From a virus, in IMG/VR virus record IMGVR_UViG_3300048597_000314, positions 1 through 28,732 of that record: DNA of 28,732 nt; one strand, written 5' to 3'. Positions within the stretch are counted from its first letter, which is position 1; every line of letters begins with the position of its first letter. This document shows, piece after piece, positions 2,736-13,377 of this stretch. Both the position numbers and the translations under genes were made by a program. The notes beneath the pieces were generated by a model. That model was given only the letters and a program-made list of their open reading frames with translations. It did not search any database and was not told the DNA's origin.

Positions 2736-2906
2736 ATGATTAGCGAAGCTCTTAAAGCGGCTCAGCGTCGCTACCGAGATAAACCTGATGTAAAAGAAAA
2801 ACGACGGGAATATGATCGCCGTCGTAATCGTGCAGAATATATGCGAGAGTATCGCCGCCGAAAGAAAGAGGAGTCTATCCAGGCAGACGATACTGCCACC
2901 ACTTAG
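2736..2906 (+). CDS. Small highly basic protein
   Basis: It encodes 56 residues. GGAG lies nine bases before the ATG. The central part is dominated by Arg, Lys, Tyr and Glu (AQRRYRDKPDVKEKRREYDR, then YMREYRRRKKEE), with repeated R-x-x-Y spacing. Small phage proteins of this composition often bind nucleic acid, though no named family was recognised. Its 3' end overlaps the 3' end of the leftward methyltransferase gene by 32 bases, so the two are convergent. It is a lone rightward gene between leftward units. Confidence 0.5.
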   Translation: MISEALKAAQRRYRDKPDVKEKRREYDRRRNRAEYMREYRRRKKEESIQADDTATT

Positions 2907-3486
2907 TCACGGTATGCTCTGGCAATAATTCGTCCACTGCCTTAATTACCCCTGGCCAACTAGGTTGATAATCGTCCCCGGCAAGCAATCCGCCGGGTTT
3001 TATTTTTGGTAACCATGCCTCTACATCTGCCTTGACCGCCTCATATTCGTGCTGGCCATCCAAAAACACCATGTCCAGGCTGGCGTCCTCAAACCGTCGG
3101 GCGGCCGTCACCGAGTCCTGTTTAATGGTCCGCACATAATCGCCACATTCACTGGCGGCAAGGTTCTCCCGAAATATTCCTTCTAACGTTTTGCCCTGAC
3201 CGGCGATCGCCTTTAGTTCCATGCTGTGCTCTGGGGAACCCTCAAAGGTGTCGAAGGCATAGAAGAAAATTGGCTTCCCTGACTGGCGGATTTTGTCAGC
3301 GAGATAGATGGTGCTGCGGCCTTGCCAGATGCCGATTTCTACCACTTTGACGATGCCGGTGGACTGCTCCACAAATTGGTCGTAAAGTTCGGACCACCCA
3401 AACCAACCGGGGATAGCTTCCCAATTAAACGGGGCGGCCCCACTTTTGCTGGAGGAGTTGGGCTGAGGTTGAGAAGGTGTATTCAT
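2875..3486 (-). CDS. Class I SAM-dependent methyltransferase (Methyltransf_24-like)
   Basis: The product has 203 residues. Near residues 46-58 the VVEIGIWQGRST segment matches the glycine-rich AdoMet-binding loop, followed by an acidic FYAFDTFEGSPE segment at the second strand. Around residues 140-150 MVFLDGQHEYEAV and then KPGGLLAGDDY match motifs of the Methyltransf_24 and cephalosporin-hydroxylase-like group, which often methylate sugars or small molecules. The first 20 residues are low-complexity. Its start lies 62 bases inside the upstream glycosyltransferase gene, so the pair is cotranscribed and probably acts on one glycan. Likely cytoplasmic. Substrate is unknown; a surface polysaccharide or a virion glycan fits the pairing. 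Confidence 0.75.
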   Translation of the reverse strand: MNTPSQPQPNSSSKSGAAPFNWEAIPGWFGWSELYDQFVEQSTGIVKVVEIGIWQGRSTIYLADKIRQSGKPIFFYAFDTFEGSPEHSMELKAIAGQGKTLEGIFRENLAASECGDYVRTIKQDSVTAARRFEDASLDMVFLDGQHEYEAVKADVEAWLPKIKPGGLLAGDDYQPSWPGVIKAVDELLPEHTVTKWWQYRLPG

Positions 3487-9076: not shown

Positions 9077-9372
9077 AGAAATACAGGATTAATCACCCAA
9101 TTTTGAGGTTTCCCGTGGACATGAGCCAAGCTTTCGATTTAACCCTTAAAGACTTTGGAATAAAGGCTTCTGAATTTGCCATCAAAAGCGGAGTACCTGA
9201 ATCTGACATTTCCCGTTTCAGAAACGGAAAAACAGACGTTGGCTATCAAAAAGTTCAAAAGCTTTTATCAGCACTCTCTCCGTTGGAATTGGACTATTTC
9301 TGGCTTTTATTCCGTTGCAATCAGCCTGAAATAGCTAAGAAAATTTCACCTAATTTCGGAGGTGCAAAATGA
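9073..9372 (+). CDS. XRE-like helix-turn-helix protein
   Basis: It encodes 99 residues from a TTG overlapping the previous stop as TTGA, with GGTGA just upstream. An ATG at 9121 is an alternative start. Residues 30-65 contain an HTH: KASEFAIKSGVPESDISRFR, then NGKTDVGYQKVQKLLSAL, with the S-x-F-x-N-G pattern of lambda-repressor-like domains. The C terminus LDYFWLLFRC is aromatic. It is probably a second small transcription regulator of the early region, distinct from the leftward repressor. Confidence 0.7.
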   Translation: MKKYRINHPILRFPVDMSQAFDLTLKDFGIKASEFAIKSGVPESDISRFRNGKTDVGYQKVQKLLSALSPLELDYFWLLFRCNQPEIAKKISPNFGGAK

Positions 9373-9920
9373 CTAAGCCCACCGACGAGAATTACACCCC
9401 CAACACCAAAGAGCAACCCATCCTTGACCTAGTGGTGGAAGTGCTAGGGGAAATAGACCTAGACCCCTGTGCCAATGAAGCAAAAACCGTCCCAGCCACT
9501 GAGCATTGGACGATCGCCGACGATTCATTAGGCGGGCCATGGGAAGGAAAAACATTTCTGAATCCTCCCTACTCCAACCCACTACCCTTTCTCGAACGGC
9601 TTTGCTTGTTCCATGAAGTCGGGGACATACCAGAGGCGATCGCCCTTCTGAAGTCTGGCACTGTCCACAACAAGGGAACCGGGGCATTGATTGAGAAATA
9701 CGCCACGGCCATTTGCTTCTGGGGGGCTGGAAAGAATCGGCGCATTGGCTTTATCAACCAGCACGGGGAGCAAAAGCTAGCCGCTGATTTTGATTGTGTC
9801 CTGATTTACTTCGGACTCAATTACGCCAGATTCCGCAAAGTTTTTAAGCCCTTTGGACATGTTGTCTATGGCGATCGGGTGGTGAGTGTTATTGAAAACA
9901 CAGGAGTAGGCAATGAATGA
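9369..9920 (+). CDS. Phage DNA N-6-adenine methyltransferase (Dam family)
   Basis: The 183-residue product resembles the phage DNA N6-adenine methyltransferase family (PF05869). It contains EIDLDPCANEA near residues 29-39, GPWEGKTFLNPPYSNP near 56-71 with the catalytic NPPY of the D/N-PP-Y motif, and a C-terminal DFDCVLIYFG segment. It would transfer a methyl group from AdoMet to adenine in DNA. GGAGG lies six bases before the ATG and the gene overlaps its neighbours. Likely role is protection of phage DNA from host restriction, or changed regulation. Target sequence cannot be read from the protein. Confidence 0.85.
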   Translation: MTKPTDENYTPNTKEQPILDLVVEVLGEIDLDPCANEAKTVPATEHWTIADDSLGGPWEGKTFLNPPYSNPLPFLERLCLFHEVGDIPEAIALLKSGTVHNKGTGALIEKYATAICFWGAGKNRRIGFINQHGEQKLAADFDCVLIYFGLNYARFRKVFKPFGHVVYGDRVVSVIENTGVGNE

Positions 9921-11413: not shown

Positions 11414-11694
11414 TGGAAATCCCCACCCATGACCTTTACACCAAGTACCAGGAATTACAGAAGCTAATGGCCGTTGCCGACCGGGCAGCCATGGCATTCG
11501 TAATCCCCTGCGAAGTGTCGGACGATGAACTGCTTCTTGCCTCCGACGTGGCGGCCTACATAAACGACTATCGCAATGAACTGCGCCAACGTGCCAGTTG
11601 GATTAACCGAACCATTGCATTGCGGTTGGAGAACCAAGTGATGGAAGGGGATGTTAACCCCGACTGGGAAGACAGTTCTGGGTTGCTTTTGTAA
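11413..11694 (+). CDS. Hypothetical protein, 93 residues
   Basis: The ATG overlaps the previous stop and the stop overlaps the next ATG as TAATG. The product is acidic and helical, with YTKYQELQKLMAVADRAAMA and DVAAYINDYRNELRQRASW segments. No signal peptide or metal motif is seen. The gene lies directly before the interrupted methyltransferase locus. No family was recognised. Confidence 0.6.
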   Translation: MEIPTHDLYTKYQELQKLMAVADRAAMAFVIPCEVSDDELLLASDVAAYINDYRNELRQRASWINRTIALRLENQVMEGDVNPDWEDSSGLLL

Positions 11695-11732
11695 TGCGCC
11701 AACTTGATCTGTTTGCAGGCTTGGGTGGCTTT
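11694..11732 (+). pseudogene. Residual 5' end of a C5 cytosine methyltransferase gene
   Basis: The 13 codons from the ATG at 11694 read MRQLDLFAGLGGF. This is the canonical start and AdoMet-binding motif I of a C5-MTase. The frame then runs, without methyltransferase-like sequence, into the GIY-YIG gene. The intact methyltransferase at 12628 has its own motif I (LSLFSGIGGF). The fragment is therefore a duplicate 5' end left by an insertion or recombination event. It is unlikely to make a functional protein unless RNA splicing joins it to the downstream gene. Confidence 0.7.
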
Positions 11733-11749
11733 ATACCACCCAGTTTTTT
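11722..11749 (+). terminator. Strong intrinsic terminator at methyltransferase motif I remnant
   Basis: TGGGTGG at 11722-11728 pairs perfectly with CCACCCA at 11736-11742 around CTTTATA, and a run of six T follows a G at 11744-11749. The left arm is formed by the motif I codons themselves. It should stop most transcripts of the upstream early genes before the endonuclease and methyltransferase, unless ribosomes or an antiterminator prevent folding. Confidence 0.7.
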
Positions 11750-11768
11750 AAAACACACAAGAGGAATT

Positions 11769-12635
11769 ATGTTGAAAGAATTGAGTGGGCAGGGCGTATA
11801 CGCCATTACCTGTTTAGCTAATGGCAAAAAATATGTAGGTAGCGCCAAGGACATTAAACGTCGTCATTATTTACACCTATGGCGACTTCGGAGTGGCATA
11901 CATGAAAACCCAAAGCTTCAAAGAGCTTGGGAAAAATATGGAGAATCAAACTTTACGTTTGAAATCTTGGAGTTGGTTAAAGAGATAGAACGTCTTTTGG
12001 ACGTTGAACAGCATTGGATCGATTTTCTGGATGCTTGCAATAAAGGCTTTAACATCTGCCCTGTTGCGGGGAATAGCTTGGGGCGCAAGTTAAGTGTTGA
12101 GACTAAGCAAAAAATATCTCAAGCAAATAAGGGTCGTATTCCATCACTGGAAACACGAAAAAAACTATCTTTGGCAAACAAAGGCAAGACATTGACTGCT
12201 GATCAGCGGGCAAAAGTGTCATTGGCCACGAAAGGGAAAAAGCGAAGCAAGGAGGTTTGTTTACAGATGTCCTTGCGTCGAAAGGGTTTGGTTCAGCCAC
12301 ATAAATATAAGCCTGTCGTGAGGATGGATACGGGGGAAGTCTATCCATCTTTGAACGATGCGGCATTGGCGGTTGGCGTTACAAATAGCAGCATTTCGCA
12401 ATCAATAAAAACAGGGTGTCAATGTAAAGGGATTTACTGGAAATTCCATGGAGAAGAGCCTGTAGCATCAAAGCCACCGCAAAGAAAGCCGGTGAAACGA
12501 TTTGATACAAACCAGATTTTTGACTCGATCAAAGATGCTGGAATGAAATGCTTTATTTCTCCAGAGGCTATATCCAGCGCAATAAAAAGAGGCGGGAAAT
12601 GTTGTGGAACTTATTGGGGATATGTCAATGAGTAA
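11769..12635 (+). CDS. GIY-YIG homing endonuclease with NUMOD repeats
   Basis: The frame is open from 11694, but AGAGGA just before the ATG at 11769 marks a 288-residue endonuclease. Its N terminus has GVYAITC and KKYVGSAKDI, the two strands of a GIY-YIG nuclease, then RAWEKYGESNFTFEILE and a conserved acidic VEQHWID segment. The middle carries NUMOD3-type repeats (SVETKQKISQANKG, SLETRKKLSLANKG). Two IENR1/NUMOD1-like DNA-binding units follow (GEVYPSLNDAALAVGV and NQIFDSIKDAGMK), each ending in a GxYW motif. Such enzymes cut DNA at a homing site. It overlaps the methyltransferase start by eight bases and follows a methyltransferase fragment, which suggests insertion at this site. Confidence 0.9.
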   Translation: MLKELSGQGVYAITCLANGKKYVGSAKDIKRRHYLHLWRLRSGIHENPKLQRAWEKYGESNFTFEILELVKEIERLLDVEQHWIDFLDACNKGFNICPVAGNSLGRKLSVETKQKISQANKGRIPSLETRKKLSLANKGKTLTADQRAKVSLATKGKKRSKEVCLQMSLRRKGLVQPHKYKPVVRMDTGEVYPSLNDAALAVGVTNSSISQSIKTGCQCKGIYWKFHGEEPVASKPPQRKPVKRFDTNQIFDSIKDAGMKCFISPEAISSAIKRGGKCCGTYWGYVNE

Positions 12636-13377
12636 TCCGCTTCGCATACTAAGTCTCTTTTCTGGTATAGGCGGCTTTGAATTGGCGGCCGAACAAATAA
12701 ATCTAGCCTGTCAAGAACAAATATTTTTAGTTGCTCAGATGTGCGAAAAAGATTTGTTTTGCCAGCAGGTTTTGAAAAAAAATTTTCCTGGAGTACCCAT
12801 TCATGGAGACATTACAACTTTCACTGCTTCCCCTGGAGAATTCGACGTCATCACCGCCGGATTCCCTTGCCAGGACGCTTCCGAATGCAATCCCCACGGG
12901 AGAGGGTTGGAAGGTGAGCGAACAGGATTGTTCTATGAAGTCGTGCGAATTGCTTGCGACGTTAGACCCCGGTTCATCCTGCTGGAAAACGTCCCAGCTT
13001 TGCTTAGTCGAGGATTTGGCAACGTCCTTAGCTCACTGGCCAGAAGCGGGTTTGATGCGGAATGGCAGTGTATTCGTGCATCGGAAATGGGAGCGCCGCA
13101 CACCCGTAAGCGATTGTTCCTTATTGCCTACTCCCAAAGCGCAGGAGCGGCCCGGCCTTGTAGCCCACAAACCAGGCCAAACTTTGCACCTTTCAGCAGC
13201 CATTCTTTCTGGGGACAAAACCCACCGCCTGAACGAACAATTTGTTCTCTGGATGATGGGGTTCCCCGCCCATTGGTTAGACAGCGACTAAAGGCAATAG
13301 GCAACAGTGTTTGTCCTCAAGCTGTTGCCGTTGCCTACCAAAGAATCATGGAGATTAACAAGTGTATCACCAATTAA
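12628..13377 (+). CDS. DNA C5-cytosine methyltransferase
   Basis: The 249-residue product contains the ordered C5-MTase motifs: LSLFSGIGGFE (I, 9-18), the catalytic FPCQD with Cys81 (IV), LLENVP at 118-123 (VI), GAPHTRKRLFLIAY at 155-168 (VIII) and RLKAIGNSVCPQAVA near 220-234 (IX/X). It transfers methyl groups from AdoMet to cytosine C5. The recognition region between VIII and IX is short, about 45 residues. In-frame starts exist at 12604 and 12622; 12628 is preferred because GGGGA lies seven bases upstream. Residues 59-221 are overlapped entirely by another reading frame. Likely role is protection or regulation of phage DNA; target unknown. Confidence 0.9.
   Translation: MSNPLRILSLFSGIGGFELAAEQINLACQEQIFLVAQMCEKDLFCQQVLKKNFPGVPIHGDITTFTASPGEFDVITAGFPCQDASECNPHGRGLEGERTGLFYEVVRIACDVRPRFILLENVPALLSRGFGNVLSSLARSGFDAEWQCIRASEMGAPHTRKRLFLIAYSQSAGAARPCSPQTRPNFAPFSSHSFWGQNPPPERTICSLDDGVPRPLVRQRLKAIGNSVCPQAVAVAYQRIMEINKCITN
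12803..13291 (+). CDS. Overlapping protein encoded inside the C5-MTase gene
   Basis: This 162-codon ATG frame lies wholly inside the methyltransferase, shifted +1. It contains SCWKTSQLCLVEDL, HWPEAGLMRNGS, CSLLPTPKAQE and LNEQFVLWMMGFPAHW in order. From memory this is the pattern of a phage protein family usually annotated hypothetical (W-P-x-x-G-x-M-x-x-G, then LPTP, then LNxxFVxWxMGFPxxW). Signature blocks lie exactly opposite methyltransferase motifs: SLARTL opposite PCQDAS, CWKTSQ opposite LLENVP, GLMRNG opposite GFDAEW, MGFPAH opposite DGVPRP. GGAG stands about 11 bases before the ATG, only a weak start signal. It is either a true dual-coded protein or a conserved shadow of the methyltransferase. 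No biochemical function is known to me. Confidence 0.5.
   Translation: METLQLSLLPLENSTSSPPDSLARTLPNAIPTGEGWKVSEQDCSMKSCELLATLDPGSSCWKTSQLCLVEDLATSLAHWPEAGLMRNGSVFVHRKWERRTPVSDCSLLPTPKAQERPGLVAHKPGQTLHLSAAILSGDKTHRLNEQFVLWMMGFPAHWLDSD

Follow-up and report, generated by a model that had tools for sequence, protein, structure and literature searches.

A nested +1 reading frame as the probable recognition subunit of a phage C5-cytosine methyltransferase

We analyzed a 28,732-nucleotide stretch of virus DNA (IMG/VR record IMGVR_UViG_3300048597_000314, positions 1 to 28,732; hereafter the window) in which a C5-cytosine methyltransferase (MTase) gene encloses a second, complete reading frame. This locus very probably encodes, by overprinting, a two-chain C5-cytosine MTase in which the product of the enclosing frame (alpha) would be the catalytic subunit and the product of the nested frame (beta) would contribute the target-recognition domain (TRD) and motif IX. 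Beta is most likely the DNA-recognition half of its own MTase. The stretch is dual coding, and the frame on which selection acts changes along the gene.

Results

The catalytic chain and its surroundings

The 28.7-kb record carries integrase-like, RecT, DnaB-like helicase, terminase, portal, head-morphogenesis, and endolysin genes, and two further DNA-methyltransferase-like ORFs are located at 9369-9920 (+) and 2875-3486 (-) (PHROG 111 and 2675). The ORF that encloses beta spans 12604/12628-13377 (+), and alpha, when read from the ATG at 12628, which overlaps the stop codon of an upstream endonuclease gene (ATGAGTAA), is a C5-cytosine MTase catalytic subunit of 249 residues (12628-13377 (+)). 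The match of alpha to PF00145 (3.7e-38) is restricted to residues 6-174, and motifs I, IV (PCQ), VI (ENV), VIII, and X, by which a C5-MTase of this family is recognized, are all present. Alpha is not, however, a complete single-chain enzyme because the TRD and motif IX are not in the same chain, motif IX being located in the +1 frame. Foldseek matches alpha to the monomeric C5-MTases M.HaeIII and M.HhaI, which resemble it in the catalytic domain but, unlike the window locus, have the TRD and motif IX in frame on a single chain; coverage of M.HhaI by the alpha profile is limited to 6-214. In the AF2 model of alpha, pLDDT values are 90-98 for residues 1-170 and 93-97 for the helices (residues 214-224 and 230-248) of motif X (RLKAIGNSVCPQ; 13288-13377 (+)). 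Residues 171-215 are mostly of low confidence, with values below 50 for residues 185-209, which lie opposite the TRD and motif IX of beta, and this TRD stretch of alpha is predicted to be disordered.

The upstream gene encodes a GIY-YIG/NUMOD3 homing endonuclease (within 11694-12635 (+)), its likely start being the ATG at 11769 with the Shine-Dalgarno (SD) sequence AGAGGA. A 13-codon stub (MRQLDLFAGLGGF; 11694-11732) preceding the endonuclease resembles the 5' end of a C5-MTase gene, and the intact alpha frame downstream begins again with an LFSGIGGF of its own. Apparently, the endonuclease was inserted just past the motif I codons and the 5' end of the MTase was re-supplied. A search for a group I intron around the endonuclease gave no Rfam match of any weight.

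The nested frame and its family

Beta is a 162-residue frame with an ATG start (12803-13291 (+)) in phase +1 inside alpha, exactly as the first-pass annotation of this DNA had described, and the sequence blocks named there are all present and placed opposite MTase motifs in the manner claimed. SLARTL (12863-12880 (+)) lies opposite PCQDAS; CWKTSQ (12980-12997 (+)), with which the constrained core of beta begins, lies opposite LLENVP; and WPEAGLMRNG (13037-13066 (+)) lies opposite GFDAEW. LLPTP and the putative TRD stretch occupy 13121-13225 (+), and the candidate motif IX (RLNEQFVLWMMGFPAHWLD; family pattern LNPxxVEWLMGFPxGWTDL) occupies 13226-13282 (+). The separately annotated phage family to which the same annotation referred also exists: it is PHROG 1008 ('DNA methyltransferase'), which is matched by the window beta (E 4.5e-15) and by all 68 members of the beta alignment (the window and 67 relatives). 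Pfam and NCBIfam searches with beta returned no match. The PHROG 1008 model has 329 positions, and its final part also matches motif X of alpha, so that the family, despite the profile match, differs from the window locus in including split-type members whose second ORF carries motif X too.

The stretch between LLPTP and motif IX is variable, with repeated [WL]PTPxAxD units in some relatives (L055, L119), as expected of a TRD. Assignment of the end of beta as motif IX is based on its position and on comparison with Streptomyces tauricus (L099) and the actinobacterial locus L247, in which a beta-type motif IX is in frame with motifs I-VIII and X. Alignment of the beta C terminus with canonical motif IX using hhalign gives P 0.0025 and a probability of 12%, a match that is weak on its own because the segment is short. 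AF2 gives a poor model of beta by itself (pLDDT 63), and a fold search of the PDB with this model gave no match; both outcomes are compatible with folding that depends on a partner but are not evidence for it. A PDB sequence search with the beta profile retrieved only glycolipid transfer protein (E 0.08), which we regard as chance hits.

Selection on the two frames

The longest +1 frame in the window alpha has 171 codons, whereas 1000 synonymous shuffles average 74 (p=0.003), and the equivalent comparison for the +2 frame gives p=0.075. Over 137 loci, all of which except the window were fetched by beta similarity, the longest +1 frame averages 233 codons versus 120 after shuffling, with p<=0.01 at 88 loci, and the +2 control shows no effect (75.4 versus 75.9). 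Because of the way in which these loci were chosen, the test was repeated on ORFs picked by PF00145 only. Among 106 such C5-MTase ORFs, taken from genomes of which part had been chosen for holding a beta locus and the others were class-wide draws, 21 show a beta excess (z 4.8-13.4), and none of these has the ordinary motif IX; in four of them, all actinobacterial, a beta-type motif IX is in frame instead. The remaining ORFs, mostly with the ordinary motif IX (LTxREaaRLQxF), have z<3 and no beta excess. The class-wide draws hold only a handful of beta-type genes, and so the arrangement is a minority one among bacterial C5-MTases.

Conservation in the +1 frame has two components. The window beta scores 176.9 bits against a beta profile of 106 other loci, and synonymously shuffled versions of alpha score 77.3 ± 11.7 bits (maximum 113.9), none of 500 shuffles reaching the real value. 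About 77 bits of the beta match are passive mirroring of conserved MTase motifs, and 100 bits lie beyond this shadow. At SLARTL, the wobble position of the codon for the opposing invariant proline is C in 46 loci, T in 20, A in 18, and G in 17, which reveals no constraint beyond the shadow, and this block is mainly passive. From CWKTSQ onward, additional constraint is present: the asparagine codon of the alpha ENV motif, opposite CWKTSQ, uses C in 93 of 101 cases, and, opposite WPEAGLMRNG, the wobble positions of alpha Ala 13039 and Gly 13048 are C in 77 of 77 and G in 83 of 95, respectively.

Identity at fourfold wobble sites of alpha over 101 divergent loci is 0.320 upstream of beta, 0.330 in the N-terminal part of beta, 0.513 in the blocks, 0.880 in the TRD and motif IX (13171-13291), and 0.345 downstream, where single coding resumes with motif X; third-position change in 41 non-overlapping pairs of relatives is 0.492 upstream, 0.288 in the core, 0.254 in motif IX, and 0.455 downstream, related loci being treated as independent in both tests beyond the clustering applied. 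Amino acid identities in 25 close pairs identify the selected frame in each region. Alpha is the best conserved frame both upstream (0.754) and downstream (0.774), and both frames are conserved in the core (alpha 0.844, beta 0.744, +2 frame 0.681). In the TRD, identity is 0.728 for beta versus 0.584 for alpha and 0.558 for the +2 frame, and the changes concentrate at position 1 of alpha codons, which is the wobble position of beta; in motif IX, beta is again ahead of alpha (0.910 versus 0.848). The TRD stretch is selected in the beta frame, and alpha is a passenger there. Stop codons at neutral frequency and unsuppressed synonymous change, which the first-pass annotation had named as signs that the nested frame is not real, are not what we observe: the frame is kept open and the wobble sites are constrained.

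An initiation signal for beta

An SD-like GGAG with 9 nt spacing precedes the ATG of beta (12790-12805 (+)). Ahead of the core, 80% of 80 loci have an SD (at least 4) with an ATG or GTG in the beta frame, versus 41% in shuffles, and the peak of these signals along the alignment is the bin containing the window ATG at 12803 (23 of 101 loci versus 7.0 expected from synonymous shuffles). A second bin of starts near 12914 is less enriched (28 versus 17.2), and the ATG at 12935 in the window also has an SD. Conservation is poor over the ~50 N-terminal residues of beta, and so the choice of start codon is based on these enrichment statistics.

Distribution and overlap among relatives

Searches with tblastn detect relatives of beta in 118 phage and 25 plasmid records, in which the underlying annotation is mostly cytosine methyltransferase. 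IMG/VR gave 255 relatives, of which 80 were kept, and GTDB genomes gave 50, their sources including Actinomycetota, Proteobacteria, Gemmatimonadota, Planctomycetota, Bacteroidota, Clostridia, Parcubacteria, and others. Beta homologues overlap a C5-MTase, always in phase +1, at all 137 loci (134 by script, and L047-L049 on re-check), and no standalone beta genes are present among these 137 beta-selected loci. The beta stop codon is inside alpha at 134 of them. The beta frames of L010 and L079, the latter at a contig edge, overrun alpha by a few bases, and in Streptomyces phage phiBT1 (L004; 2314-2814 and 2432-3364) alpha extends no further than motif VIII, and the TRD, IX, and X are all read in the +1 frame, which continues beyond it. 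In the phiBT1 record (AJ550940), gp9.1 is annotated 'may be inactive', and the downstream +1 frame with the TRD, IX, and X is unannotated.

Some relatives are arranged differently. At L047 (about 2957-3310), and also at L048 and L049, an HNH-endonuclease-like frame (CEICGSQSRLGLHHKDRN...LCPTCHTRLHW) directly follows the beta stop codon; it is in phase +1 and still within alpha, and would give the MTase gene a second protein that is out of frame with alpha. In mycobacteriophage Llama (L280; 1513-2272), annotation divides the MTase into two DNA methylase genes (74 and 75), and the match to it is also in two pieces, perhaps because alpha is broken or re-split. L177 and L178 have only motif IX-like tails (LNPLFVEALMGWPTGW and LNPEFVCWLMGFPKEW), joined to an unrelated ORF and adjoining an N6/N4-MTase-like region, and these are apparently remnants or products of domain shuffling.

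Discussion

In the mechanism that we propose, alpha (frame 0) would supply the catalytic Rossmann domain (motifs I-VIII), the AdoMet site, and motif X, and beta, translated in frame +1 from an internal start codon of its own (ATG 12803), would supply the TRD and motif IX that are missing from alpha. The selected frame passes along the DNA from alpha alone (motifs I-IV) to both frames (from about ENV to motif VIII), then mainly to beta (TRD and motif IX), and back to alpha alone (motif X). Because motif X can be reached only by reading through, alpha would carry the TRD/IX stretch as an unstructured passenger linker. We infer that beta is expressed; most likely, alpha and beta would then associate as a heterodimer with methylation activity at a single specific site, which may shield the phage genome from restriction by the host. 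The arrangement could plausibly have begun when an in-frame TRD/IX module was frameshifted (L099 and L247 have modules in either frame), and the N-terminal part of beta would have been overprinted on motifs VI-VIII later.

The first-pass annotation had posed a choice between a dual-coded protein, either an inhibitor or a partner of the MTase, and a family that is itself a frame-shifted shadow of C5-MTases. If conservation in the +1 frame merely reflected the opposite MTase motifs, and PHROG 1008 were an artefact of gene calling, this would account for the invariable overlap with C5-MTases, the 77 bits retained by shuffled alpha, the absence of extra constraint at SLARTL, and the lack of a Pfam or NCBIfam family. 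It does not account for the 100 bits above the shadow, the freezing of wobble sites, the suppression of third-position change, the identity of beta exceeding that of alpha in the TRD, the enrichment of SD and start signals, or the lack of any signal in C5-MTases with an ordinary motif IX. The synonymous-site tests refute the shadow as a full explanation, to which we assign a negligible probability, and the idea survives only for the ~77 bits of mirroring, for example at SLARTL.

Two other accounts accept that the +1 frame is translated. Ribosomes on alpha might undergo programmed frameshifting into +1 to give a single chain with motifs I-VIII, the TRD, and IX, and the sharing of one frame by these modules in actinobacterial L099 and L247 implies that a fused chain is tolerated. 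Enrichment of internal SD and start signals in the beta frame nevertheless makes this very improbable, as do the termination of the nested frame before motif X, which the shifted product would lack, and the onset of the conserved beta core opposite motifs VI-VIII, which a late shift would leave untranslated. We think it equally hard to credit that beta, although truly dual coded, does something else, such as inhibiting or regulating the MTase or host restriction. The function of beta is predicted from sequence, and CWKTSQ and WPxxGxMRNG have no assigned role, both of which would accommodate such an idea; beta, however, supplies exactly the TRD and IX module that alpha lacks, is not seen alongside an alpha with an ordinary motif IX, and has relatives (L099 and L247) that read as complete MTases when the modules are in frame. 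Of the two roles suggested for a dual-coded protein, that of partner is strongly supported, in the form of a TRD and motif IX subunit, and that of inhibitor has found no support.

Two-chain C5-MTases are already known, and M.EcoHK31I, too, has its beta subunit encoded in an alternative frame within the gene for its alpha subunit. The window locus resembles M.EcoHK31I (YGGCCR), a two-polypeptide C5-MTase (Lee, Kam & Shaw 1995, as described in PMC3404938) that has been exploited for being split by nature (PMC3439449), in having motifs I-VIII and X in the large chain and IX in a separate, smaller one, the two being compared by description. The TRD of M.EcoHK31I, however, is predicted to be in the larger subunit, only motif IX being in the smaller (PMC3404938), whereas in the window the TRD is selected in the nested frame (0.728 versus 0.584). 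M.AquI (CYCGRG) is likewise split between motifs VIII and IX, but its beta subunit has both IX and X (PMC3404938); motif X of the window remains in alpha, which is therefore not of the M.AquI type. The M.AquI order, with IX and X in beta, is that of phiBT1, with a long overlap there. We found no paper on nested phage C5-MTases in the open literature, which is weak evidence of absence because most subscription journals were outside the search. What is new here seems to be the breadth of the arrangement and the evidence of frame selection.

Genome pipelines keep one frame, and so MTases of this kind are annotated without their recognition subunit; the beta-type arrangement is widespread among phages and bacteria, and most annotations omit it. 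For phiBT1, the consequence is that gp9.1 is called 'may be inactive' while the frame that would complete it stays unlisted in the record. Specificity prediction, cloning, and knock-outs that assume one protein per gene would fail or mislead. The locus is a clear example of extended dual coding on one strand, with the work divided between the two products in chemically defined terms, and it offers a way to distinguish conservation that is a passive shadow (77 bits here) from that due to genuine dual coding (a further 100 bits). It also raises the question of whether the TRD assignment in M.EcoHK31I needs revising. We lean towards the view that such 'frame relay' C5-MTases are common and old. 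On this view, the catalytic chain reads through the TRD/IX stretch as a passenger, the recognition module in the +1 frame is variable and in some cases repeated (LPTPxAxD), and specificity would evolve, in phages as in many bacterial phyla, within a concealed gene that is mostly missing from annotation, with modules having moved between frames several times.
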